A stretch of 44,990 nucleotides of DNA from Rhodospirillales bacterium (GCA_021775005.1 JAJFIK010000090.1:1-44990), one strand, 5' to 3'. Counted from the first letter of the stretch, positions 18,896-36,741 are shown. Notes: a model not told the origin generated them from the letters alone. Made by a program: numbers and translations.

Positions 18896-20707
18896 TTAAA
18901 AGTGCGCCTGCGTTTCAGAAATAAACAATGTTGAGGGCGGCAGAGTATCGACGTCACTATATGTGCCAACCCAAATATTGTAGAGCCCTGATGCAGGATC
19001 AAGAAACTCAATTCCTGGATTGAGCCCCGAATAGTCATCTGAACAATGCCAGCTGCCATCGGGAGCATTGACCACCAGCGTCAAGTCAGCCGTGGAAGAC
19101 GCCGAGATGAAGAGGTCATAAGTATCGCCGGCGGTGTAAACCAAATTGTAGTCTGGTGCCGTGGCAACAAATCCGTTGCAGGCAAAATCAAGCCCGCTGG
19201 CATCCTGACTGCCCCCGGCCGCCACTGACACAACATGGGGGTCTGGCAGAAATCCGCTTTCAAGGTTGGCCGTGCCGTAGGAAGGCTCAAGGGACCAATC
19301 CACATCGCTGGTTACCGTGCCGCCGCTGCCATCGGGCCCTAGACCAAGCTCAGATACGGCCAGCAACGCGTCAATAAAATTATCCGCAATGCCAAACTGT
19401 CCCACCCAAACGTCATAGAGCCCTGATTTAGGGCTTTCGAAGGTGACTTGTGGGTTTGGATATCCAGCACCGTCATCGTCACAGTGATAGGTGCCATCGG
19501 GAGCGCGGATAACGAGCACAGTGTCATTTTGCGATGTGGCAGTAAACGTCAACGGCAATTCACCTGCTTCAAAAATGACATCATAGTCCGGCGCGGCGGA
19601 CACAAAGCCCCAACACTGATCGCCAAGTTGGCTGGCATCCTGGCTGCCGCCCGCAACGATATCCACCACATGGGGGTCGGGCAGAAAACCAGTTGTCAGA
19701 GTCACACTGCCAAAGTTGGGATCAAGGGACCAATCGATATCCCCCGTCTGCGCGAAACCACCATCGTCGTCAGGCCCCAGACCAATTTCAGAAATAGCCA
19801 AACGTGCGTCAGCAAGAGCATCACGGTTTTCAGAGCCAAAACGACCGACCCAAATGCTATATAGACCAGAGATGGGAAAGTTGATGAGCAATTGCGGGTT
19901 GGGATAACCCATGCCGTCATCATCGCAGTGGTAGACACCGTCTGGGCTGCGCACCACCAATGTTGTGTCACTCTCAGACATGGCGGAAATTGTCAGGTCG
20001 TACTCACCGCTTGAGTCATATGTCAGATTAAAATCCGGCGCGGCAGAAACCCAACCCCGGCAATGGTCGCCGAGAGTGTTGGCCTCTTGGTTGCCCCCTG
20101 CTACCGCCTCAACAACATGAGGGTCAGGCAGAAACCCCGAGCTGAGCGATACCGAGCCGAAATTGGGCGGCAAGCGCCAATCAATGCCCGCTTGTGGCGG
20201 CACCTTTGTGGGCACCACTTCTTCGGTCACGACGCGCAATTCAGAAATGTGTAGATCGGCTGGTTGCAAGCCCCCATATGCGGAATAGGTGCCAACCCAA
20301 ATATTATAGAGCCCAGATTGTGGCGACCCAAATGTCAGCGCCGGATCAAAACTGCCGTAATCGTCATTGCAATACCACTCTCCATCAGGCCCATTGACCA
20401 CCAGTGTCGTATCAGCCTCAGAGGTAACAGAAATATATAGGGGCAATGCTCCTGCGGTGAACATCAGATCCACATCGGGCGCCCCGGCGACGCTGCCAAT
20501 ACAATCCCCGCCGATGGTCTCGCTCGCATCAAGTTCGCCACCGGCATGGAGTGAAATGCTGTGGGGATCAGGAACAAACCCACTACGCAAATTCACCGTG
20601 CCATAAGTTGGATTTTGTGAAATGTCCTGCGCAATTGCCGCACCGGCAAATGCACCAATCAAAAGCGCCGCGGCAATTGTCGTGCGCGCTAAACCAAAAG
20701 AAGTCAT
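18896..20707 (-). CDS. Secreted protein of four tandem beta-type repeats
   Basis: A 603-residue exported protein. Residues 1-26 are a Sec signal peptide (cleavage after AIA-26). Four homologous units follow, about residues 32-158, 180-309, 329-456 and 474-600. Each has GF(L/V)PDPH, a Gly-Gly turn, a Cys about 25 residues later, APD, an acidic DTTLVV..PDG..C.DD(Y/D) cluster and SGLY.IWVG. Each repeat has exactly two Cys (69/113, 216/261, 365/409, 510/555), so a disulfide per domain is likely. The Asp clusters may bind calcium. Overall pattern resembles bacterial pre-peptidase-like beta domains, but no enzyme domain is attached. GGAGG precedes ATG 20707; the extended upstream frame has no signal sequence. 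Confidence 0.85.
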   Translation of the reverse strand: MTSFGLARTTIAAALLIGAFAGAAIAQDISQNPTYGTVNLRSGFVPDPHSISLHAGGELDASETIGGDCIGSVAGAPDVDLMFTAGALPLYISVTSEADTTLVVNGPDGEWYCNDDYGSFDPALTFGSPQSGLYNIWVGTYSAYGGLQPADLHISELRVVTEEVVPTKVPPQAGIDWRLPPNFGSVSLSSGFLPDPHVVEAVAGGNQEANTLGDHCRGWVSAAPDFNLTYDSSGEYDLTISAMSESDTTLVVRSPDGVYHCDDDGMGYPNPQLLINFPISGLYSIWVGRFGSENRDALADARLAISEIGLGPDDDGGFAQTGDIDWSLDPNFGSVTLTTGFLPDPHVVDIVAGGSQDASQLGDQCWGFVSAAPDYDVIFEAGELPLTFTATSQNDTVLVIRAPDGTYHCDDDGAGYPNPQVTFESPKSGLYDVWVGQFGIADNFIDALLAVSELGLGPDGSGGTVTSDVDWSLEPSYGTANLESGFLPDPHVVSVAAGGSQDASGLDFACNGFVATAPDYNLVYTAGDTYDLFISASSTADLTLVVNAPDGSWHCSDDYSGLNPGIEFLDPASGLYNIWVGTYSDVDTLPPSTLFISETQAHF

Positions 20708-25044: not shown

Positions 25045-25308
25045 CTACCTGATTGGCAAATTGTAGAAGGTTGCGATCAACCAACCGAGAACGGCGGATG
25101 ACAATGACCAAAGGATCAGGCCGACCACAAAGCCAACCAAACTCATGGACCAGGACATGGCGGAGAGGTCGGCGTGCACCATGCTGCCGGATGCACCCAT
25201 CATGCTGCCGGGCATTATGGCGACGAGCGCTGAGCAGATCGTCCAAAGAACGGCGGCCGCCATCGCCGCTGCCAGGGCCAGTTTTGTCGCTTCGAGTTTC
25301 ATTTTCAT
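25045..25308 (-). CDS. DUF5676-type small membrane protein
   Basis: An 87-residue protein with two hydrophobic helices (about residues 8-31 and 50-77), separated by a Met/Ser/Gly-rich loop (IMPGSMMGASGSM). It fits the DUF5676 family, often found beside heavy-metal efflux genes. GAGGAGC lies just before ATG 25308; longer frame extensions lack this site. It is transcribed leftwards, divergent from the methyltransferase, and the CueR-type site at 25373 lies in the shared upstream region. The Met-rich loop could contact copper; function is unknown. Confidence 0.7.
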   Translation of the reverse strand: MKMKLEATKLALAAAMAAAVLWTICSALVAIMPGSMMGASGSMVHADLSAMSWSMSLVGFVVGLILWSLSSAVLGWLIATFYNLPIR

Positions 25309-25372: not shown

Positions 25373-25403
25373 TTGACCTTCCACCCGCTGGAAGGTCTAG
25401 GGT
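25373..25403 (+). promoter_or_regulatory. CueR/HmrR-type (MerR family) promoter, copy 1
   Basis: TTGACC at 25373-25378 and TAGGGT at 25398-25403 are separated by 19 bp, the over-long spacer typical of MerR-regulated promoters. The spacer holds perfect 7-bp arms ACCTTCC and GGAAGGT, 7 bp apart, as in copper CueR/HmrR operators. It drives the methyltransferase gene 36 bp downstream. No MerR-type regulator is encoded in the window. Confidence 0.8.
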
Positions 25404-25438
25404 GCCATTTGACGCAGGCTTCAAGGGAAACGGGCCCA

Positions 25439-26113
25439 ATGACTTCAGAGACCGAAGATCGCGCCTATGTCCCGGCCCTGGGCCAGCATTGGATGACGCC
25501 GTTCTATGACGCAGCGATTGCGCTCACGACGCGCGAGGCAACGTGGCGGACGGCGCTGCTTGGCCTCGTCGATCCCCATGGCGAAGATGTGATCCTTGAT
25601 ATCGGCTGCGGCACCGGAAGCCTTATCGCGGCAATGAAGGCAGCCAGCCCTGAGATACAAATCGTCGGACTTGATCCCGACCCTGAGGTTCTTGTGATCG
25701 CGAAAGCCAAGGCCCGGTCTCGCGGCCACAAGGTTGAGTTTGTTCAAGGCTTCGGTGATGAACTGGCAGAAAAACTTGGCGCCCGAGCGATCAACAAAAT
25801 TGTGTCCAGCCTGGTCTTCCATCAAGTGCCCCTTGATGGAAAACGATCAACGCTCCAGGCCGCCTTTGACTATTTGCCCGAAGGCGGACAGTTGTTCATC
25901 GCAGATTTTGGAGAACAGCGCACGCCCCTGATGCGGTTTCTTTTCAAAACGGTGCAGCGATTGGACGGGTTTGAATTTACCCAGCCTAACGCTGACGGAT
26001 GCTTGCCAATTATTCTCACAGATGTGGGCTTTTCTGCGGTCCAGGAAGCATTGGTTGTCCCGACAATCGTTGGTTCAATTTCGCTTTACTCAGCACAAAA
26101 GGGCGGTATGTGA
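25439..26113 (+). CDS. Class I SAM-dependent methyltransferase under a copper-type promoter
   Basis: A 224-residue Rossmann-fold methyltransferase. Motif I is ILDIGCGTGSL, followed by the acidic VGLDPDPEVL (motif II), VSSLVFHQVP (motif IV region) and LPEGGQLFIADFG (motif VI region), as in UbiE/Methyltransf_25 proteins. No metal-binding Cys trio of ArsM type is visible, so arsenic methylation is unlikely. It is placed behind a CueR-type promoter and its TGA overlaps the next start by one base (TGATG). Its substrate in copper response is unknown. ATG 25439 is preferred over an upstream frame extension that would run through the promoter. Confidence 0.85.
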   Translation: MTSETEDRAYVPALGQHWMTPFYDAAIALTTREATWRTALLGLVDPHGEDVILDIGCGTGSLIAAMKAASPEIQIVGLDPDPEVLVIAKAKARSRGHKVEFVQGFGDELAEKLGARAINKIVSSLVFHQVPLDGKRSTLQAAFDYLPEGGQLFIADFGEQRTPLMRFLFKTVQRLDGFEFTQPNADGCLPIILTDVGFSAVQEALVVPTIVGSISLYSAQKGGM

Positions 26114-26583
26114 TGGCAGTCTGCGACTGGTCCGGCTTGACGATGTTCATGCGGCAGGCGCAGTATTTGTGTGTGACCAGCATGAGACAAATGTGGAAAG
26201 GCGTGCTTGCGGCATTTTTGGCCGCCACAATGACGTTCGCCTTCATACCCAGCACCCACGCCCATGCCAGTTCAGGTCATGCGAGCAACGCGATGGCGGT
26301 CCAATTGGATGATATGGGCGACAACCACACGGCCCCGCACTCCCATCACGCGGCTCCGAAGATGGACCAACCCGTAGACCAGTTAACACAGCATGCGCCT
26401 TCAGCGCCCGATAGTGAATTGTGCTGCGATGACGCAGGCCTCTGCGCTGGCGGGTTCACATTGGCCATCGAAACAACTTCCATTGAGCCTTTGTTCAGTG
26501 CGAACGATGAGTGGCCCGCAAACGGCAATGCTTTCATAGACTTCACTCCCGCATTGGACATCCCTCCCCCTCGGCACTCCTAG
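26113..26583 (+). CDS. His/Cys-containing exported protein, possible copper binder
   Basis: A 156-residue protein from ATG 26113, or 133 residues from ATG 26182, which begins a clean signal peptide (MWKGVLAAFLAATMTFAFI, cleaved near THAHA). The mature part is rich in His and Met (NHTAPHSHHAAPKMD) and has a Cys cluster LCCDDAGLC. This is reminiscent of CopL/DUF2946-like exported metal-binding proteins, but not a confident match. The first start overlaps the methyltransferase stop (TGATG) with GGGCGG upstream; the second fits the secretion signal better. Located directly before copA, so a periplasmic copper-buffering role is plausible. Confidence 0.6.
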   Translation: MAVCDWSGLTMFMRQAQYLCVTSMRQMWKGVLAAFLAATMTFAFIPSTHAHASSGHASNAMAVQLDDMGDNHTAPHSHHAAPKMDQPVDQLTQHAPSAPDSELCCDDAGLCAGGFTLAIETTSIEPLFSANDEWPANGNAFIDFTPALDIPPPRHS

Positions 26584-26651
26584 AGATCGATTGAATTTGC
26601 GCGTCCAGTTTTGGTAGCCGCATCCTCATCTCATTTCGTTGGAGTACCTTT

Positions 26652-28397
26652 ATGTCTATTGCTCGAAGAGCAGGGGCCGTGTTTGCCGGCCTTCTATCCA
26701 TACTGATTTTTGGCACGTCCGCACAAGCGGACGAATACAGTCTGACTATCGATGAGGTTGTCATGACCGTCGATGGCGAGACCCGCACCGGGATCGGCAT
26801 CAATGGGACAATCCCTGGACCTACGTTGCGCTTTCGCGAAGGCGAGACCGTGACCATCAATGTGACCAATAATTTGGATGAGGACTCGTCCCTCCACTGG
26901 CATGGCATTTTGCTGCCCAATAATCAGGATGGCGTGCCGGGTCTCACATTTGACGGCATCGCGCCGGGTGAGACCTTTACCTATAGCTACACTTTGCAGC
27001 AGCATGGGACCTATTGGTACCACAGCCATTCCGGCCATCAGGAACAGCGCGGCGTGTTCGGGGCGTTGATCGTCGATCCCGCAGAACCTGACGCGGTGCA
27101 GTACGACCGCGAGCATGTGATCGTTCTTTCGGATTGGTTGCATGAGGATCCGGCGACGGCGCTCCGTAATCTCAAATCGCGGGCGGATTATTACAATTTC
27201 GATCGGCGCACTGTGGGTGACTTCTTCCGCGACGTGTTTGGTGCCCGCTCTGGCGCAGAACGGCAGGCCGCCATTCAGGACCGGCTGGACTGGGGTGCCA
27301 TGCGCATGGACCCCACCGACATCAACGATGTGTCGGGCTACACGTTTCTGATGAATGGGCAAGAGCCGGACGTCAACTGGTCGGCGCTGTTTGAGCCCGG
27401 TGAGCGCGTGCGGCTGAGGTTTATCAATGCGGCGGCCATGACCTATTTCGATGTGCGCATTCCGGGCCTGACCATGGCGGTCGTCAATGCGGACGGCAAC
27501 AATGTGGTGCCTGTGCCGGTGGATGAGTTTCGCATTGCTGTTGCCGAGACCTATGACGTGATCGTGGAGCCAGAGGACCACCAGGCCTACACAATCTTCG
27601 CCGAGGCCCGCAGTCGTGAAGGCTATGCCCGCGGAACATTGACACCTCAGTTGGGCATGGAAGCGCCGATCCCGGAAATGTCGGCACGCGAGGTTTTGAC
27701 CATGGCAGCCATGGGCGGCGCGCATGGGGGACATGGGGGCGGAAACCGCCGTCAAGCAACTGAGCCGGAGCTTGATGCCATGGCAGGCATGGATCATGCT
27801 GCCATGGGGCATGAGGACATGGTGCAGATGGCCGAACCAGAAACCTCGCCCATGGCAGACATGGACCACGCTGCAATGGGCCACGACATGCCAGCGACAC
27901 CTGACCCCCTCGCCGGTCACGACATGGGGACAACAACCGGCGACGCAGAAATGAGTGGGCGCATCACACGGTTGACCTATGACGATCTTGAGGCGCTGGA
28001 GCCCTATGTCGGCGCGCCAGCCCCGGACCGCACCATCACGCTGCGGCTGACCGGCGTCATGGAACGCTACATCTGGACCATCAATGATGAGCGTTATGAT
28101 CCTGATGACACTGAGCCCATTCGAATGCGCCTTGGTGAGCGCGTGCGGCTGGAGTTTATCAACGAGACCATGATGGATCACCCCATGCATCTGCACGGCA
28201 TGTGGATGGATCTGCAAAACGGACACGGGGAGACAAACCCGCGCAAGCACACCATCAGCATCCCGCCCGGGCAAACTCTGTATGCGGATGTTACCGTGGA
28301 TGCGCCTGGAAATTGGGCGTTTCACTGCCATCTAATGTTTCACATGGCCTCGGGCATGTTCCAGCGCGTGGTCGTGGCCGAAGCGGTTGAGAGTTGA
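26652..28397 (+). CDS. copA: CopA-type periplasmic multicopper oxidase
   Basis: A 581-residue cupredoxin oxidase (Cu(I) oxidation, periplasm). A signal peptide ends near SAQA. The four copper-ligand blocks are present: HWHG (His82/His84), HSH (124-126), HPMHLHG (510-516) and HCHLMFHMASGM, with Cys559 as the type 1 ligand and Met569 as the likely axial ligand. Residues about 350-440 form a Met/His-rich insert with repeated MDHAAMGH-type units, characteristic of CopA/PcoA. The symbol follows copper-resistance usage; it is not the P-type ATPase. The stop overlaps the region before copB. Confidence 0.93.
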   Translation: MSIARRAGAVFAGLLSILIFGTSAQADEYSLTIDEVVMTVDGETRTGIGINGTIPGPTLRFREGETVTINVTNNLDEDSSLHWHGILLPNNQDGVPGLTFDGIAPGETFTYSYTLQQHGTYWYHSHSGHQEQRGVFGALIVDPAEPDAVQYDREHVIVLSDWLHEDPATALRNLKSRADYYNFDRRTVGDFFRDVFGARSGAERQAAIQDRLDWGAMRMDPTDINDVSGYTFLMNGQEPDVNWSALFEPGERVRLRFINAAAMTYFDVRIPGLTMAVVNADGNNVVPVPVDEFRIAVAETYDVIVEPEDHQAYTIFAEARSREGYARGTLTPQLGMEAPIPEMSAREVLTMAAMGGAHGGHGGGNRRQATEPELDAMAGMDHAAMGHEDMVQMAEPETSPMADMDHAAMGHDMPATPDPLAGHDMGTTTGDAEMSGRITRLTYDDLEALEPYVGAPAPDRTITLRLTGVMERYIWTINDERYDPDDTEPIRMRLGERVRLEFINETMMDHPMHLHGMWMDLQNGHGETNPRKHTISIPPGQTLYADVTVDAPGNWAFHCHLMFHMASGMFQRVVVAEAVES

Positions 28398-28408
28398 GGG
28401 AGATAACC

Positions 28409-29119
28409 ATGGAACATGCACGCCGCATGCGGTTTTCGGCCCTGATGATCGCTGTCTTCATATCCATGCTTGGTGCCTCAGCGATTGCTGCGGAAGGTGC
28501 CACCTTCGCATACGCCGCCCTTGATACGGACATCGCGGAACAGGGCGGTGAGACTGTCCTGAGCTGGGATGGACAGGGGTGGATCGGCGGCGATTTCCAC
28601 AAGCTTTGGGTCAAGACCGAAGGTGAATGGGCCGCGGGGGATTTAGAAGAGGCCGAATTGCAAGCGCTCTACAGCCGCATGATCGCCCCGTTCTGGGATT
28701 TCCAGGCCGGTATCCGCTATGACTTTGAACCTGAGGGCCGCGCCTATGCAACCGCCGGGTTCATGGGCCTTGCGCCCTATTGGTTTGAGGTGGACGCCGC
28801 TGCATTCCTGAGTGAGGACGGCGATGTCAGTGCCCGCCTCGATGTGGACTATGAGCTTTTGTTTACCCAGCGGCTGATCGGATCGCCCTATGCAGAGGTC
28901 GATATTTTCTCGCGGGATGTACCAGAGCTTGAGGTGGGCTCAGGTCTGGCCACGCTGAATAGCGGCTTTCAGCTGCGTTATGAGATCACACGAAAATTCG
29001 CACCTTATGTGGATATCAACTATGAGCGTGCGTTTGGCACCACTGCAGACATGCGGCGGGCGGCAGGCGAAGACGTAGAAACAACAACCGTCCGCTTCGG
29101 CGTGCGGCTGGTGTACTAG
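28409..29119 (+). CDS. copB: CopB-type outer-membrane copper resistance protein
   Basis: A 236-residue protein with a signal peptide (cleaved near AIAA) and a beta-strand-rich body. The region WDGQGWIGGDFHKLWVKTEGE and the alternating aromatic C-terminus ending FGVRLVY are the CopB/PcoB pattern. It lacks the long Met/His-rich N-terminal repeats of the Pseudomonas protein, so it is a short form. CopB sits in the outer membrane and works with periplasmic CopA. GAGGGAG precedes ATG 28409, which lies 11 bp after copA; the two are co-transcribed. Confidence 0.9.
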   Translation: MEHARRMRFSALMIAVFISMLGASAIAAEGATFAYAALDTDIAEQGGETVLSWDGQGWIGGDFHKLWVKTEGEWAAGDLEEAELQALYSRMIAPFWDFQAGIRYDFEPEGRAYATAGFMGLAPYWFEVDAAAFLSEDGDVSARLDVDYELLFTQRLIGSPYAEVDIFSRDVPELEVGSGLATLNSGFQLRYEITRKFAPYVDINYERAFGTTADMRRAAGEDVETTTVRFGVRLVY

Positions 29120-29159
29120 GCAGGGCTTTGTGAAGAACGAAATGATGGAGCGTCAAAAA

Positions 29160-29918
29160 ATGAGACTCAAAAAAGTACTGCTGGTGTTGCTCATACTGAT
29201 GGGCACCGGCAGCGCCTTTGCGGCAGGGTCCGGCCACGACCACGACGAACCCTCTTCTACAACTCAAGAAGCGCAGCCGTCAGCGGACCAAGACGACGCC
29301 AAACATGATGAGGTGGTGGAAGAATCCGCAGACCATCATGGCCCTGAACAACCCATGAATGCCCACAGTGACAGCGCAATGGGCGCTGATGACCACCATG
29401 GCGACACAGCCATGGAGGAAATGGCGGCGGAACATGATCATTCAACCCACGAAGAGGGAACGTGGGCCAAGGATGATTTCCAGCAGGTTCTTGCCTGGAT
29501 CGGTAAATTCCACCCAGCGGCAACCAACTTTCCCATTGCCCTCTTATTGGCGGCCGCCCTTGCAGAGCTTTTGTTCCTGGGAACACAGAACACTGCCTTG
29601 CGCCAGGCGGCACGTTTTTGCCTCTGGACCGGCACAGCCGGTGCTGTGGGAACAGCCGTGCTGGGGTGGTTCTTTGTTGGCTTTGATTTTTCCGCCGACG
29701 ATGCCCTCCTCTCAGCTCACCGATGGAATGGAACGGCGACAGCTTTCGTCTCGCTCTTTGCGTTGGGGTTCGGGGAGCGGGCGTTTGCCGCGCGGGGGTC
29801 AGTCGCCCTGTTTCGCGTCGCCCTCGTGGCTGTTGCTCTCATGGCCGGGTACAACGGCCTTCTGGGCGGCAAGATGGTCTATGGTGAGGACCATTATGCT
29901 TGGCCGACGTCAGAATGA
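29160..29918 (+). CDS. DUF2231-domain membrane protein with His/Asp-rich periplasmic region
   Basis: A 252-residue protein. A signal peptide (VLLVLLILMGTGSAFAA) is followed by about 85 residues dense in His, Asp, Glu and Met (SGHDHDEP, SADHHGPEQPMNAH, DDHHGDTAMEEM, EHDHSTHEE). A four-helix DUF2231 domain then opens with IGKFHPAATNFPIALLLAA. DUF2231 helices have conserved His residues that may bind haem or metal. The acidic-His segment looks like a metal-binding tether. ATG 29160 has GGAG 9 bp upstream. It probably belongs to the copA-copB transcript. Function unknown. Confidence 0.8.
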   Translation: MRLKKVLLVLLILMGTGSAFAAGSGHDHDEPSSTTQEAQPSADQDDAKHDEVVEESADHHGPEQPMNAHSDSAMGADDHHGDTAMEEMAAEHDHSTHEEGTWAKDDFQQVLAWIGKFHPAATNFPIALLLAAALAELLFLGTQNTALRQAARFCLWTGTAGAVGTAVLGWFFVGFDFSADDALLSAHRWNGTATAFVSLFALGFGERAFAARGSVALFRVALVAVALMAGYNGLLGGKMVYGEDHYAWPTSE

Positions 29919-29971
29919 TTTGGCTCAGGTCTGTGCGTGAATGGTGAGAACTATTGGGAAAGGTGAGGCAG

Positions 29972-30907
29972 ATGTCTCATAGCCATACACTCGGCGGCGG
30001 AATGGACGGCGGCAATAGCCGCGCCCTGCAAATTTCCGCTTGGCTGACAGGCATCTACTTTGTCGTTGAGCTGGCAATCGGGATCTACACTGGCTCGATC
30101 GCCGTTATCTCCGACGCCTTTCACACGTTCTCAGCCGTCGGCGGCGTTTTGCTGGCTTTTGTGGCAGCAAAAATTGCGACCCGCCCGGCGACGACATCAA
30201 AGACGTTTGGATTCGCACGGGCGGAAATTGTCGGTGCTTTGCTCAATGGGATGTTCCTTCTGGGAATGGCCCTCATCGTCTTTGTGATGGGCTACATGAG
30301 ATTACGGAACCCCATTGACCTTCCCACCGGGCCCATGCTGTTCGCGGCGGCTGGCGGGCTCATCACGGAAACGATTTCGCTTTGGCTGCTTTATGGGCGA
30401 CGAAAGGGAAACCTCAATATGCAGGGCGCGTTCTGGCACGTCATGCAAACATTTGTCGGCAGCTTGCTCATCATCGTTACGGCGCTTGTGATCAAGTTCA
30501 CCGGCTTTCTCGCCATCGACCCGATTTTGGGCATGGCCTTTGGCGTCGTGCTCCTTCTGGTGTCAATCGGGGTGATCCGGGAGTCCATCGACATTCTGAT
30601 GGAAGGGACGCCGAGAGATATCGACTTGCCAGTGGTGGTCAGTGATCTCGAAGCCATTCCCAATGTCACTGACGTTCACCATGTCCATGCCTGGGCGCTG
30701 ACGTCCGGGCGGAATGTATTTTCTGCGCATGTGAGGATCGGCAATGGCGCTGATCTGCACAACATTCTTGTTGAGGCCCACAAAAACCTCAAAGATAAAT
30801 TCGGGTTTCATTTTTCAACACTGCAAATCGAGACGACCTGCATGGACGAAGCCCATGCGCGGGATCTTGAATTCAACCAACACGGAGAAGACAATCATGA
30901 TCATTAA
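29972..30907 (+). CDS. Cation diffusion facilitator (CDF) transporter with an atypical metal site
   Basis: A 311-residue CDF protein: six membrane helices and a cytoplasmic C-terminal domain (VHHVHAWALTSG). Canonical zinc exporters carry HxxxD in both TM2 and TM5. Here TM2 reads SDAFHTFSA and TM5 reads HVMQT, so the Asp of each motif is replaced by Ala and Thr, while both His remain. Family membership is otherwise plain, with a His-bearing N-terminus (MSHSH) and C-terminus. The change suggests a different or altered metal preference. AGGTGAGG precedes ATG 29972. The stop overlaps the next gene by 11 bp. Confidence 0.88.
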   Translation: MSHSHTLGGGMDGGNSRALQISAWLTGIYFVVELAIGIYTGSIAVISDAFHTFSAVGGVLLAFVAAKIATRPATTSKTFGFARAEIVGALLNGMFLLGMALIVFVMGYMRLRNPIDLPTGPMLFAAAGGLITETISLWLLYGRRKGNLNMQGAFWHVMQTFVGSLLIIVTALVIKFTGFLAIDPILGMAFGVVLLLVSIGVIRESIDILMEGTPRDIDLPVVVSDLEAIPNVTDVHHVHAWALTSGRNVFSAHVRIGNGADLHNILVEAHKNLKDKFGFHFSTLQIETTCMDEAHARDLEFNQHGEDNHDH

Positions 30908-31463
30908 ACAACTCGCACTTGGATTTGGCGTTTTAGGATTGGCCGCCCTTCTCGGCGGTTGCGCCGCGACTAACGCAGCAGCACAAATGGACGACATGGA
31001 CGGTGGCCACGCGCAGGAGGGCCACCCGATGATGGGCCAAATGCACGGCACTCAAGAAATGCATTGCCAAATGCATGACTGCGGGGCCGATGCGGAGGCG
31101 GCGCAGGCCGTGCTTCAGGCCTATTCCGCCGCCATCAACGCCGAAGATATCGACGCCATGGCGGCGCAGGTTGTTGCCGATGAGCGCTTCAGCGTGATCG
31201 AAGGTGCCGGCACCAACAGTGGCTGGGCTGACTACCGCGATCATCACATCGGCCCGGAATTCGCCTCTGAGCGGATCGACTTTCACGTCTATGGCTATGA
31301 CAACATCGACATGCGCGTCGGCCACATGTTCGCCTATGCCACGTTTACCTATGCGTTCGAAGCCACATTGGACGGCGAGCCCTACAACAAAGAAGGCCGC
31401 GGCACCGCTGTCCTTCTGCGCACGCCTGAGGGCTGGCGCATCACCCATATCCAGACCTCGTAG
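30897..31463 (+). CDS. Met/His-rich lipoprotein with NTF2-like (SnoaL/DUF4440) domain
   Basis: A 188-residue lipoprotein. The lipobox LGGC lies near residue 22. A Met/His/Asp segment follows (MDDMDGGHAQEGHPMMGQMHG, CQMHDCG) of the type seen in periplasmic copper chaperones. Residues about 65-188 form an NTF2-like domain (AVLQAYSAAINAEDIDAM, then TPEGWRITHIQTS). An NTF2 domain fused to a copper-binding-type tail is unusual; the domain may bind a small ligand or act as a dimer scaffold. ATG 30897 overlaps the CDF gene's end, implying coupling. Anchored to a membrane facing the periplasm. Confidence 0.8.
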   Translation: MIIKQLALGFGVLGLAALLGGCAATNAAAQMDDMDGGHAQEGHPMMGQMHGTQEMHCQMHDCGADAEAAQAVLQAYSAAINAEDIDAMAAQVVADERFSVIEGAGTNSGWADYRDHHIGPEFASERIDFHVYGYDNIDMRVGHMFAYATFTYAFEATLDGEPYNKEGRGTAVLLRTPEGWRITHIQTS

Positions 31464-31475
31464 CGGGGCGGCCCC

Positions 31476-31958
31476 ATGAACAAGGCTGCTTTGTATGGAG
31501 GCATCGCCGCAGCGGCGCTTTTGGGCATTGGTGCATTTTGGTTGTTGGCGCCTGAGCGGGCGCCAACGGGGCCCCTGGCTGTTGAATTGCGGCCAGGGGA
31601 TGCGCCCTTTGTGGCCCAGGGGCAGGAGTTATATGAACAATATTGCGCCTCCTGCCATGGCGCGAATTTGGAAGGCGAGGCCAATTGGCGACGGCGTAAT
31701 GCGCAAGGTCGCTTGCCAGCACCGCCGCATGATGAGACCGGGCACACCTGGCACCACCCGGATGGTGTCCTGTTCCAGCTCACCAAGTTCGGCCCGGCGG
31801 CATTGGTGGGCGAGGGCTATGAATCCGACATGCCTGGATATGAAGGCACCCTGACAGATGAGGAAATCCTGGCGATTCTATCCTTCATCAAAAGCCAATG
31901 GCCCGAAGAAATACAGCTCCAGCATGACGGGGTGAACACCCGCGGCGGGCATCGTTGA
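31476..31958 (+). CDS. Membrane-anchored c-type cytochrome
   Basis: A 160-residue monohaem cytochrome c. One N-terminal helix (residues 7-24) anchors it. The haem site is CASCH (Cys57, Cys60, His61); the likely axial ligand is Met in [11 protein letters not shown], and [17 protein letters not shown] is the conserved C-terminal helix. The sequence closely resembles cytochromes found beside multicopper oxidases in copper clusters. It could receive electrons from copper oxidation or donate to a periplasmic reaction; neither is shown. Starts 13 bp after the lipoprotein gene. Confidence 0.9.
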
Positions 31959-31985
31959 CATTCTAGTCACTGGAGGGTTTAGGAG
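31955..31985 (+). promoter_or_regulatory. CueR/HmrR-type promoter, copy 2 (degenerate arm)
   Basis: TTGACA at 31955-31960 and TAGGAG at 31980-31985 are 19 bp apart. Aligned base by base with the 25373 site, the elements TTGAC, TTC, CTGGA, GGT and TAGG coincide exactly; the left arm is weaker. It overlaps the end of the cytochrome gene and precedes the MMPL transporter, whose ATG is 29 bp beyond. Confidence 0.6.
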
Positions 31986-32013
31986 TCTGTCTCCATAGAA
32001 GGGACGGCCCCCA

Positions 32014-34338
32014 ATGACCCACAAACTGATGTCGGCGATACTGGCATTCCGGCTACTCATCATTTGTGTATGGGCGGGCATCCTTTTAATTTTCGGGTAC
32101 GTTGCAGCAACGCAGACGGCGTTTACCTCGGACTACCGCGTTTATTTTGCGCCGGACAATCCTGAGCTTCTTGCTTATGAGGCGATTGAGCAGGAATTCG
32201 CCAGCGACGACAACGTCCTGATTGCCGTTGCGCCGCAGTCTGGTGACGTGTTCACACCTGACGTTCTTGCGCTTGTTGCCCAGCTCACAGAGGCCGCCTG
32301 GCAAATCCCCCATGCCCAGCGGGTTGATTCGCTGACGAACTTCCAACATGTCCGCGCGGTTGACGGTGATATTGTGGTGGGGTCATTGATTGAAAACCCC
32401 CGCACCATGCCGCCCGGGGAATTGACCGCCGCCCGTGAAATTTCCCTGAGCGAACCCACTCTCGTCCGCCGCCTTATCTCGGAGACCGGCCAGGCAACCG
32501 GCATATTCGTCACCCTGAATTTTCCGGGCGATGACCACCGGGCGCATGTCCCGGAGACAGTGGGATATGTTCGCAGTCTTGTCGACGAGATCAGGCGCGA
32601 GTATCCCGACTTGCGAATCGCGCTTACGGGCACAGCTATCATCAGTCACGCCCTCGACGAAATGACCGTCCGCGACCTGATGGTTCTATCACCTTTTCTC
32701 TATGTGGTGCTGTTTGGCATGCTGACGGTCCTTCTGCGCTCGGTGTCCGGCATGTTTGTCACAAGCGTGATTGTAACTGTTGCCGCCGTGGTCGCAATGG
32801 GGGTCGCCGCATCCCTCGGAATCCTGCTGACCTCTGCGTCCGTCGTCGCGCCAATCATTATCCTTACGCTTGCTGTGGCGGATTCGGTTCACTTCATTGC
32901 CAGTGCGCAGGACGCGCGCCATGGCGGCATGGGGAAGATCGAGGCGCTGAGAGAGAGCATGCGGATCAACTTTGAGCCCGTCTTCCTCACCAGTCTCACA
33001 ACGCTCATCGGCTTCCTCAGCCTTAATTTTTCCGCCGCTCCCCCTTTCCGGGATCTGGGAAATGTAACCGCAGCAGGTGTTATCATCGCCTGGGCGGCCT
33101 CAATCACATTGCTCCCGGCCATGCTCAGCTATCTACCCCTGCCCAGCAGCGGGCGCGGCCCGGTCGGGGCGAGGGCCATGGCGCGCTTCGCGGATTTTGT
33201 TGTTAAGGCCCGTTGGCCCATTCTCATCACCGCATCATTGGTGGCCGCTCTTTTCACAGGTCTTGCGCCGCTCAATAGGTTGGATGACCAAGTCATCGAG
33301 TGGTTCGGCGAGCGGACCGCCATTCGCCAGGACACCGAATTCGTGACGGAAGTCCTCACCGGACCCTATCGCATGGACTTCGCCGTGGACGCGGAATCCG
33401 AAGGCGGCGTAGCTGACCCGGCGTATTTGCGTGATCTGGACGCCTTCGCCACCTGGTTGCGGGCACAGCCTGAGGTCCAGCATGTTGACAGTTTTGCCGA
33501 TGTGTTGCGTCGGCTCAATCGGGCGTTCAACGATGATGACGAACGCTTCTACAGGTTGCCGGAGTCTCGGGAATTGGCCGCACAGTACATTCTCCTTTAT
33601 GAGTTCTCATTGCCCTATGGCCTTGATCTCACAACGCAGCTGAGCTTTGACAAGTCTGCAAGCCGCCTGACCGTGACGATGGGGCGAATCTCGTCGGCTG
33701 AAACACGCGCGTTGAAACGGCGCGCAGAAGCATGGGCGGCGGCAAGCCTGAGCCATGCCGAGATATCTCAGGGAAGCGGCACAGCTGTCATGTTCGCATT
33801 TGTGTCCCAGCGAACCATCAACAGCATGCTCGCGGGAACCGGACTGGCCTTTCTACTCATCGCCGTCACGTTGATCCTTGCCCTGCGCAGTTGGAGGTTG
33901 GGGCTTCTCAGCCTCATCCCAAATACGCTGCCGGTGGTGATTGCGTTTGGCATCTGGGCGCTCACGGTTTCTCAAATCGGCGTTGTGGCCTCAGCGATCG
34001 CCGCCATGACCCTGGGCCTGGTGGTTGATGACACAGTGCATTTCCTGAGCAAGTATCATCGCGCGCGAAAAGAGCACGGTCTGAACGTCCATGATGGGAT
34101 CCGCTTTGCATTCGAACACGTGGGCGGGGCACTTGTGACAACGACCATGGTTTTGGTCGCCGGTTTTTCTGTGATGACCTTTTCAGATTTCTTGATCAAC
34201 TGGCAGATGGGCGTCCTGACCGTGATCACGATCACCGTTGCGCTGGTCCTGGACTTCTTGTTGTTGCCAGCGCTGTTGATGTTTTTTGACCGCGAAAAGT
34301 TCTGCAGCTGCGCCACATGCAGAGCAATCGAGGCATGA
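32014..34338 (+). CDS. MMPL/RND-family transporter with Cys-rich C-terminus
   Basis: A 774-residue RND-type permease of the MMPL/patched-like branch: two repeats of one helix, a large extracytoplasmic loop, then five helices. Proton-path acids stand in LAVADSVHF (TM4 region) and LGLVVDDTVHFLSKYHRAR (TM10 region), the DxxHF motif of this branch. It differs from CusA-type heavy-metal RND pumps, which are about 1,040 residues and need a fusion protein. The C-terminus reads FCSCATCRA, a CxCxxC-like tail that could bind copper. It stands alone behind a CueR-type promoter. Substrate unknown: lipid or a metal-related compound. Confidence 0.85.
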   Translation: MTHKLMSAILAFRLLIICVWAGILLIFGYVAATQTAFTSDYRVYFAPDNPELLAYEAIEQEFASDDNVLIAVAPQSGDVFTPDVLALVAQLTEAAWQIPHAQRVDSLTNFQHVRAVDGDIVVGSLIENPRTMPPGELTAAREISLSEPTLVRRLISETGQATGIFVTLNFPGDDHRAHVPETVGYVRSLVDEIRREYPDLRIALTGTAIISHALDEMTVRDLMVLSPFLYVVLFGMLTVLLRSVSGMFVTSVIVTVAAVVAMGVAASLGILLTSASVVAPIIILTLAVADSVHFIASAQDARHGGMGKIEALRESMRINFEPVFLTSLTTLIGFLSLNFSAAPPFRDLGNVTAAGVIIAWAASITLLPAMLSYLPLPSSGRGPVGARAMARFADFVVKARWPILITASLVAALFTGLAPLNRLDDQVIEWFGERTAIRQDTEFVTEVLTGPYRMDFAVDAESEGGVADPAYLRDLDAFATWLRAQPEVQHVDSFADVLRRLNRAFNDDDERFYRLPESRELAAQYILLYEFSLPYGLDLTTQLSFDKSASRLTVTMGRISSAETRALKRRAEAWAAASLSHAEISQGSGTAVMFAFVSQRTINSMLAGTGLAFLLIAVTLILALRSWRLGLLSLIPNTLPVVIAFGIWALTVSQIGVVASAIAAMTLGLVVDDTVHFLSKYHRARKEHGLNVHDGIRFAFEHVGGALVTTTMVLVAGFSVMTFSDFLINWQMGVLTVITITVALVLDFLLLPALLMFFDREKFCSCATCRAIEA

Positions 34339-34342
34339 ACAC

Positions 34343-34373
34343 TTGACCTTCCTGCTACTGGAACCACTAGATT
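34343..34373 (+). promoter_or_regulatory. CueR/HmrR-type promoter, copy 3, for the copper ATPase
   Basis: TTGACC at 34343-34348 and TAGATT at 34368-34373 have a 19-bp spacer. The left arm ACCTTCC is perfect; the right half keeps CTGGAA but diverges after it. It starts five bases after the MMPL stop codon and 34 bp before the ATPase ATG. Confidence 0.75.
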
Positions 34374-34407: not shown

Positions 34408-36741
34408 ATGAGCGCAGACCATAACCACGGCCATCACGACGAACCCGCTACTGATCCTGTATGCGGCATGAAGGTGGCGCTCAATGCGGGCAAACCGACA
34501 TTTGCTCATGACGGTTCGAGCTATCATTTCTGCTCCCAAGGCTGCCACGACAAGTTTGCGGCGGATCCGCAGCACTATCTCAGCGGTGCCCACAAGACGG
34601 CACAAGAAGACATGCCCGCGGGCACCCAGTACACCTGCCCCATGCATCCGGAAATCGTGCGCGATGCGCCCGGCGATTGCCCGATCTGCGGCATGGCGCT
34701 GGAGCCCATGGGCATACCTGCCGGGGATGAGGGCCCCAATCCGGAACTTGTGGACTTCACGCGCCGCTTCTGGGTCGGTGCGGCGCTTACAGTTCCGCTT
34801 CTTGTGTTGACCATGGGACCCTTTGTTGGCCTTGGGTTCATACGTGATTTCTTTGGCGAGCGGACGGCGCTGTGGATCGAACTCGCGCTCGGCACGCCGG
34901 TTGTGCTCTGGTCGGGCTGGCCCTTCTTTGTGCGCGGCGTCAAATCGGTGATCAGCCGTAATCTCAACATGTTCACGCTCATCGCTATGGGCGTCGGCTC
35001 GGCCTATCTCTTCAGCGTCGTCGCCGTGCTTGTGCCTGAAATTTTCCCCGATGGCTTCCGCAATGCAGAGGGCCATGTGGGCGTGTATTTCGAGGCCGGG
35101 GCCGTGATTGTGGTTCTGGTGCTGCTTGGACAGTTGTTGGAACTGGGCGCACGGGAACGCACCGGTGCGGCAATCCGGGCGCTGCTCGACCTTGCCGCCA
35201 AGACCGCGCGCATCATCCGCGAAGATGGGCGCGAAGAAGAAATTCCGCTAGAGGACGTGCATGTCGGTGATCACCTGCGTGTGCGCCCTGGCGATAAAGT
35301 CCCCGTTGATGGGGTGGTCGTCGAAGGCCGCTCGTCCATCGATGAGTCCATGATCTCCGGCGAGCCCATTCCGGTCGAAAAAACCGAGGGCGACAAAGTT
35401 ACCGGCGCAACCATTAACGGCACGGGAACGCTGGTCATGGAAGCCACCCGTGTTGGTGCCGACACCATGCTGTCCCAGATCGTTGAAATGGTCGCCAGCG
35501 CCCAGCGCAGCCGCGCACCCATTCAAAAACTCGCCGATTCCGTTGCGGGCCTATTCGTGCCCGCCGTCATAGCGGTCGCCATCGTCGCCTTTTTCGCCTG
35601 GGCGATCTGGGGCCCGCCGCCCGCCCTTTCCTATGCATTGGTTTCAGCGGTCGCTGTGTTGATTATCGCCTGTCCCTGCGCGCTGGGTTTGGCAACGCCC
35701 ATGTCGATCATGACGGCCACCGGCCGGGGCGCGCAGGCGGGCGTCCTCATCAAAAACGCTGAGGCCCTTGAGCGCTTTGCCAAGGTGGACACACTGATTA
35801 TCGACAAGACCGGCACATTGACGCTTGGCAAGCCAAAGCTGGTTGCCGTCCTGCCCCAAACCGGACATGACGAGACAGAGGTGCTCCGGCTTGCAGCAAG
35901 TCTGGAGCGCGGATCGGAACACCCCCTGGCTGAGGCCATCGTCGCAGGGGCAGAAGAACGCGGCATCGCGCTTGTAAAGGCGGAGGACTTTGAAGCCGTC
36001 ACGGGCAAAGGCGTCACCGGCCTTGTGGACGGTAAGCGTGTGGCCCTGGGCAACGCAGCGCTGGTCGCTGATCTCAACCTTGAGGGCGGCGCGCTATCAG
36101 AGATCGCTAATGCCCGGCGGGATGAAGGCGAAACAGTGATGTTCGTCATCGTCGGGGGCGAGATCGCCGGACTGGTGGCCGTTGCCGACCCGGTCAAGGA
36201 CACAACGCAAGGCGCACTGACGGCGCTCCATGCCCAGGGCTTCCGCATCGTCATGGCAACCGGCGACAATGAGCGCACCGCCGCCGCCGTGGCCGCCAAA
36301 CTCGGCATTGATGAGATTCGCGCTGATGTGCTGCCCCAGGATAAGGCGCGCATCATCAAGGACCTGCAGGCCGAGGGGCGCAAAGTCGCCATGGCCGGAG
36401 ACGGCGTCAACGATGCCCCCGCCCTTGCGCAGGCGGATGTGGGCATTGCCATGGGCACCGGCGCTGATGTGGCGATCGAAAGCGCCGGGTTCACCCTGGT
36501 CAAGGGGGATCTCAATGGCATCGTCCGGGCGCGGCGCCTGTCACGCGCCACCATGCGCAACATTAAACAGAACCTGTTCTTCGCGCTGGTTTACAACGCC
36601 GCTGGGGTGCCGGTGGCGGCGGGCATTCTGTTCCCGTTCTTTGGCATACTGATCTCGCCCATGTTTGCGGCTGCCGCCATGAGCATGTCGTCTGTATCGG
36701 TGATCAGCAATGCGTTGAGGCTGCGCACGGCGAAAATCTAA
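34408..36741 (+). CDS. Copper-exporting P1B-type ATPase with YHS and heavy-metal-binding domains
   Basis: A 777-residue inner-membrane pump for Cu(I). Residues about 15-55 form a YHS domain ([20 protein letters not shown]). Residues about 70-100 are a heavy-metal-binding domain ([20 protein letters not shown]). The ATPase has the CPC permeation motif (Cys422-Pro-Cys424), the phosphorylation site DKTGTLT (Asp466), HP in SEHPLAEAI, and [12 protein letters not shown]7 and TM8 read YNAAGVP and MSMSSVSV, the Y-N and MxxSS set of P1B-1 copper pumps. There is no N-terminal CXXC ferredoxin-like domain, as in SilP/CopF-like pumps. It is driven by the CueR-type promoter at 34343. Confidence 0.95.

Follow-up and report, generated by a model that had tools for sequence, protein, structure and literature searches.

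The DNA analysed here, a stretch of 44,990 nucleotides from a Rhodospirillales bacterium (called the window below, at its full length), carries a long array of copper-resistance genes with three promoters, at 25373, 31955 and 34343, that resemble those activated by the copper-responsive regulator CueR (HmrR). Comparison of sequences within this genome and across other Alphaproteobacteria suggests that the three sites are CueR-type copper promoters and belong to one regulon of five sites, on which a CueR protein encoded on another contig acts in trans; we put the probability of this reading at about 0.92.

Three promoters with over-long spacers

At each of the three sites the -35 and -10 elements are separated by a spacer of exactly 19 bp, as measured on the window sequence. 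The sites read TTGACC-TTCCACCCGCTGGAAGGTC-TAGGGT (25373-25403), TTGACA-TTCTAGTCACTGGAGGGTT-TAGGAG (31955-31985) and TTGACC-TTCCTGCTACTGGAACCAC-TAGATT (34343-34373). All three spacers contain TTC-(6)-CTGGA, with CTGGA 15 bases from the start of the site, and in all three the dyad ACCTTCC...GGAAGGT is centred in the spacer. The original prediction, made from the sequence of the window, had listed these three positions, with TTGAC, a 19-bp spacer, a TAG-type -10 and CTGGA at an equal offset, and all of these were recovered on re-measurement. It had also described the inverted repeat of site 1 as having perfect 7-bp arms; the arms are indeed perfect, and their length is 9 bp (GACCTTCCA, 25375-25383, and TGGAAGGTC, 25389-25397, around a 5-bp centre). 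Counted against the canonical CueR box, site 1 has no mismatches, and sites 2 and 3 have three each. The -35 element of promoter 2 overlaps the stop codon of the cytochrome c gene.

A pattern built from the sites themselves, TTGACNTTCN6CTGGAN5TAG with up to three mismatches, matches the window four times against 0.18 expected, and none of 100 shuffled sequences reached four; the additional match, at 19857, has three mismatches. Since this pattern was derived from the sites, an independent consensus was also used, namely the canonical CueR box (signal taken from PMC1526738), which was searched with up to three mismatches in the 2.85-Mb genome and in a reversed control. There are five sites genome-wide, three of them in the window, and none in the control. 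The fourth box (C5:38556) precedes a gene for a small exported protein, followed by cusC, cusB and cusA, a cus-type RND operon (L013, 5557-12995). The fifth (C84:2723, minus strand; L014, 1373-2750) precedes genes for a 292-residue outer-membrane-type protein, for which no Pfam match was found, and an HMA-domain protein. All five sites of the genome stand upstream of metal-handling genes, so that the genome-wide scan proposed with the original prediction returned a small metal-gene regulon, consisting of the three window sites, cusCBA and the outer-membrane/HMA pair. A match on contig C34 with two mismatches was rejected as a site; its -35 reads TTGGCC, and TAG is missing.

An unlinked CueR

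The genome has six MerR_1 genes, none of them on the contig of the window, which bears out the earlier claim that the window holds no MerR-type gene and that the regulator is unlinked. The search for a cueR or hmrR gene, likewise proposed at that stage, found one on contig C81 (G000:C81:22248-22631, minus strand), with a score of 151.6 bits against the NCBIfam equivalog model TIGR02044 (cut-off 147.4). Among PDB structures its product is closest to E. coli CueR, and the alignment with that protein keeps the C-x7-C metal site, Ser77 (not Cys) and Lys15. The gene lies at least 22.2 kb from the ends of its contig, and site 3 lies 10.6 kb from the end of its own; because of these distances the two must be at least about 33 kb apart. 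Autoregulation was sought, and no box was found near cueR even with up to seven mismatches. The absence of a local regulator is true for the window, yet it is not unusual, since an unlinked cueR without a box of its own is known in Vibrio vulnificus (PMC1526738).

Conservation of the boxes

In a congener, G001, the methyltransferase, the MMPL transporter, the copper ATPase and the cus operon have orthologs that are spread over three contigs, and each of these is preceded by a box. In all four orthologous promoter pairs the best ungapped 28-mer coincides with the box, with 20-23 of 28 positions identical (23 of 28 for the copper ATPase, promoter 3), against a shuffle maximum of 17-18. A third congener, G002, lacks both box and CueR; its MMPL paralogs are all distant, and it has no gene closely related to the methyltransferase. 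Box loci were also sampled from other genomes, and at 22 of the 28 a relative of a copper gene of the window or of CueR lies within 1.5 kb. In G143, G387 and G389, genomes that belong to a different family, there is a cluster in which one box precedes the MMPL gene, another a small-protein gene with copA and copB, and another the copper ATPase gene and cueR, so that cueR is linked there.

The site of the MMPL gene deserves separate consideration, because it might be a decayed box, with promoters 1 and 3 alone acting as CueR promoters. It has three mismatches and overlaps the 3' end of the gene before it; yet site 3 also has three mismatches and is conserved, and the G001 ortholog of the MMPL gene has a better box. 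When 53 MMPL proteins were placed in a tree, the six encoded behind a box formed one clade with 100/100 support. The clade spans three alphaproteobacterial families (the third represented by G384), and the box is found at 6/6 of its members and at none of the 47 other MMPL loci. We consider decay of this site unlikely.

Which regulator works the sites

A regulator of the MerR family other than CueR could also work the sites, in which case the genes would respond to zinc, cadmium or mercury rather than copper. One candidate is the divalent-metal type encoded on contig C88, a metal-sensing MerR and the only one besides CueR with C-x7-C; over-long spacers are common to MerR-type operators, and relatives of the methyltransferase adjoin divalent-type MerR genes on plasmids. 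In the residue-base code of these proteins (PMC5045206), however, CC/GG corresponds to a Lys at alignment position 14, and G,T to a Glu. CueR of C81 has the Lys, and the boxes have CC (CT at site 2). The C88 protein has Glu in its recognition helix, as well as Cys at position 77, and, as the code predicts, its own linked operator, TTGACCATGTAGGAACTACAAGGTGCAG, has GT in place of CC. This pairing of Lys with CC and of Glu with GT indicates separate operators for the two proteins, the window sites being of CueR type. The other candidate, a third metal-like regulator on C81, lacks the C-x7-C motif. The same targets, moreover, adjoin cueR in other genomes, and the sites co-occur with CueR across Alphaproteobacteria (see below), which makes control by another MerR protein quite improbable. 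It is hardly credible that the spacers match by chance and that the promoters are under some other control, such as a CopR/CusR-type response regulator, given the shuffles, the reversed control and the retention of the box in orthologous promoters. Matches to the copR model came from five OmpR-type response regulators, the best with 243.9 bits, and no regulator in the genome reaches the cut-off of 279.2.

Co-occurrence was counted in 385 alphaproteobacterial genomes, with the box taken at up to three mismatches and CueR above its cut-off: 78 have the box, 137 have CueR and 66 have both (odds ratio 18, Fisher p = 1e-23, by a test that ignores relatedness). That disregard of relatedness is one of several points that weigh against CueR control. 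In the same sample, 71 CueR-positive genomes have no box, and 12 box-positive ones have no CueR over the cut-off. In the window, the dyads of sites 2 and 3 are imperfect, with 7 and 6 of 11 positions paired, and the -10 hexamers of all three sites fit TATAAT poorly. The genome is a draft metagenome-assembled genome (MAG) of an uncultured alphaproteobacterium in 97 contigs; further sites may lie in the gaps, and cueR may be linked to the sites at a distance beyond about 33 kb.

Proposed mechanism

Beyond the observed sites, regulator gene, conservation and co-occurrence, we infer that CueR binds the sites and that copper induces them. As in the solved CueR complexes, a CueR dimer would sit on the dyad inside the over-long spacer and, with copper absent, keep the promoter in a non-productive shape. 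Binding of Cu(I) (or Ag or Au) to two C-terminal cysteines of CueR would lead to distortion of the DNA, and the distorted DNA would have its -35 and -10 elements aligned for the sigma-70 polymerase. Promoter 1 would then open the array with the methyltransferase, the small His/Cys leader, copA, copB and the DUF2231, cation diffusion facilitator, SnoaL and cytochrome c genes; promoters 2 and 3, within the same array, would give the genes for the MMPL transporter and the copper ATPase, respectively, additional transcription that depends on copper.

The genes between 25439 and 36741 are co-directional and no more than 69 bp apart, and no ordinary sigma-70 promoters or terminators sought in this array stand out against shuffles. 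For these reasons promoters 2 and 3 probably act as boosters within a long copper array, over which a putative operon may extend.

The small His/Cys protein before copA

The small His/Cys protein is a candidate CutF/CopL-like copper-sensing leader. Its start is best placed at 26182, and its N-terminus is signal-like. CC-x5-C stands about 45 residues before the final PPP, the protein ends in DIPPPRHS, and copA begins 68 nt downstream. Of the traits by which CutF-like leaders are defined (PMC9973294), it has a length below 150 residues, a signal peptide (judged by eye), PP among the last 15 residues and a downstream gene on the same strand. Membership in CutF is not claimed, because neither DUF2946 nor a CxxxC motif was found in it; there is no Pfam match at E 0.1, and the match to CopL_fam is below the cut-off (E 0.0027, 18.3 against 40 bits). 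The ribosome-binding site of copA is predicted to pair with the last codons of the leader (it is unpaired with a probability of 0.001, the shuffles giving 0.149, with 2 of 200 as low), while the total fold energy of the region is ordinary (z -0.8). In each of six comparable leaders the value is lower than the shuffle mean, which does not hold for four controls, although most single cases are not significant. A second His-rich protein, ending in PPPRS, is encoded in the cus locus on C5, and G001 has the orthologous operon with its box.

The MMPL transporter and the methyltransferase

The MMPL transporter and the methyltransferase are both predicted to be copper-response genes. In the box-bearing MMPL clade His100, His175, His693 and His702 are invariant (the last two in the five complete proteins) and are absent from the compared relatives; enrichment in Met of the kind seen in CusA was tested for in the clade and is absent. 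The protein may move copper, or something that copper damages. A search of the literature for MMPL, copper and CueR together returned no paper related by title and abstract. It is a tentative and somewhat doubtful proposal that the box-bearing MMPL protein is a dedicated copper-response transporter and, jointly with this, that CutF/CopL-like leader proteins are encoded in the same copper operons, so that copA would be under two controls, transcriptional through CueR and translational through a nascent copper-sensing leader.

The four clade-specific histidines are possible metal ligands. In G143, G387 and G389 the MMPL box has TAGACC as its -35 and comes close to full symmetry, and two boxes about 60 bp apart lie between the copper ATPase-cueR operon and a divergent run of genes (L119 7677, 14857, 14919; L153, L154).

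In the source genome and in G001 promoter 1 is directly followed by the methyltransferase gene, and in a Robiginitomaculum MAG a relative stands between genes for a copper ATPase and a cation diffusion facilitator. On sphingomonad and Roseomonas plasmids, relatives are found in heavy-metal islands, often adjoining divalent-type MerR genes; those of sphingomonad plasmids adjoin czc and cadmium genes, and one is behind a box of another type, which weakens the case for a copper-specific role. The box is absent in 5/5 alphaproteobacterial relatives outside the genus, only one of which (G279) clearly adjoins a metal ATPase and a MerR gene. No curated methyltransferase model fits (CpaM 77.7 of 180 bits, UbiE 42.2 of 216, ArsM 39.4 of 510), and ArsM-like metal methylation was rejected, as the score is far below the cut-off and the sequence has two cysteines only. 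The gene would be better described as a heavy-metal-island gene, here apparently under CueR control.

On plasmid pMI1 of Sphingobium sp. MI1205 (L159 6300), a methyltransferase relative stands behind a cation diffusion facilitator gene and a divalent-type MerR box, TTGACCCTGTAGTAACTAGAGGGTGCAG.

Relation to known systems

The regulon itself is textbook CueR, of an already known type. With the CueR/HmrR regulons of Proteobacteria (PMC1526738), of which E. coli CueR is the type, it has in common the 19-bp spacer, the ACCTTCC/GGAAGGT dyad, a regulator of the CueR family, copper ATPase and multicopper oxidase targets, and the occurrence of unlinked cueR. It differs in having a methyltransferase and an MMPL transporter among its targets, neither of which is named in the text of that survey, a cus-type RND operon under a CueR-type box, and two boxes inside a long co-directional array. 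The merR-copA clusters of Alteromonas plasmids (PMC8478169) are likewise copper islands with a CueR-like gene and a methyltransferase; theirs, however, is of the isoprenylcysteine type and the regulator is linked, whereas here the enzyme is of class I and the regulator unlinked. CutF-CutO of Rhodobacter capsulatus and CopL-CopA of Xanthomonas (PMC9973294) share a small exported Cys protein with a proline-motif end before the multicopper oxidase gene, and may also have in common the pairing predicted over the copA ribosome-binding site; in contrast to them, the present protein has no DUF2946 match, has CC-x5-C in place of CxxxC, and has a methyltransferase gene in front.

The box, kept through rearrangement and across families, is an independent signal, and it would place two uncharacterised genes in copper defence: a class I methyltransferase often found on heavy-metal plasmids, and an MMPL clade that the literature searched does not connect with copper. 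The copper-controlled MMPL clade is the part that goes beyond the textbook regulon; it and the possible leader control of copA hold the remaining interest.

Gene array of the window

The targets named in the original prediction, i.e., a methyltransferase with the His-rich protein downstream and possibly copA onward, an MMPL transporter and a copper ATPase, kept their identities in the domain search (Table 1), in which copB follows copA and the ATPase is of P-type; the class of the ATPase follows from its TIGR01511 score together with the CPC and DKTGT motifs.

Table 1. Promoters and genes of the copper array, in window coordinates.
Feature	Coordinates	Strand	Details
DUF5676 protein, two transmembrane segments, divergent from promoter 1	25045..25308	-	PF18926; start inferred from GAGGAG-ATG
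CueR-type promoter 1 (predicted)	25373..25403	+	-35 TTGACC 25373-25378; spacer 25379-25397; -10 TAGGGT 25398-25403
Class I S-adenosylmethionine-dependent methyltransferase, first gene behind promoter 1	25439..26113	+	PF13649
Small exported His/Cys protein, 133 residues, directly upstream of copA	26182..26583	+	candidate CutF/CopL-like leader
CopA-type multicopper oxidase	26652..28397	+	PF07732/PF07731/PF00394
CopB outer-membrane copper resistance protein	28409..29119	+	PF05275, E 6e-78
DUF2231 membrane protein, N-terminal part His-rich	29145..29918	+	PF09990
Cation diffusion facilitator	29972..30907	+	PF01545, PF16916
SnoaL-like protein	30897..31463	+	PF13474
Cytochrome c	31476..31958	+	PF00034
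CueR-type promoter 2 (predicted; MMPL)	31955..31985	+	-35 TTGACA 31955-31960; 19-bp spacer; -10 TAGGAG 31980-31985
MMPL/RND transporter, box-bearing clade	32014..34338	+	PF03176
CueR-type promoter 3 (predicted; copper ATPase)	34343..34373	+	-35 TTGACC 34343-34348; 19-bp spacer; -10 TAGATT 34368-34373
Copper-translocating P-type ATPase (YHS, HMBD, CPC, DKTGT)	34408..36741	+	TIGR01511, 593.9 bits (cut-off 397)

An open reading frame listed from 25373 is an artefact, its TTG lying inside the -35 element of promoter 1; the true start of the methyltransferase gene is the ATG at 25439. The C88 locus (L019, 7966-9086) is of mercury type, with the divalent-type MerR gene and the operator TTGACCATGTAGGAACTACAAGGTGCAG followed by genes for a small membrane protein and a GDCCVYC protein. 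Read on the reverse strand, promoter 1 has TAGACC as its -35, on the side of the DUF5676 gene; this gene lies about 65 bp from the box of promoter 1 and may share it.

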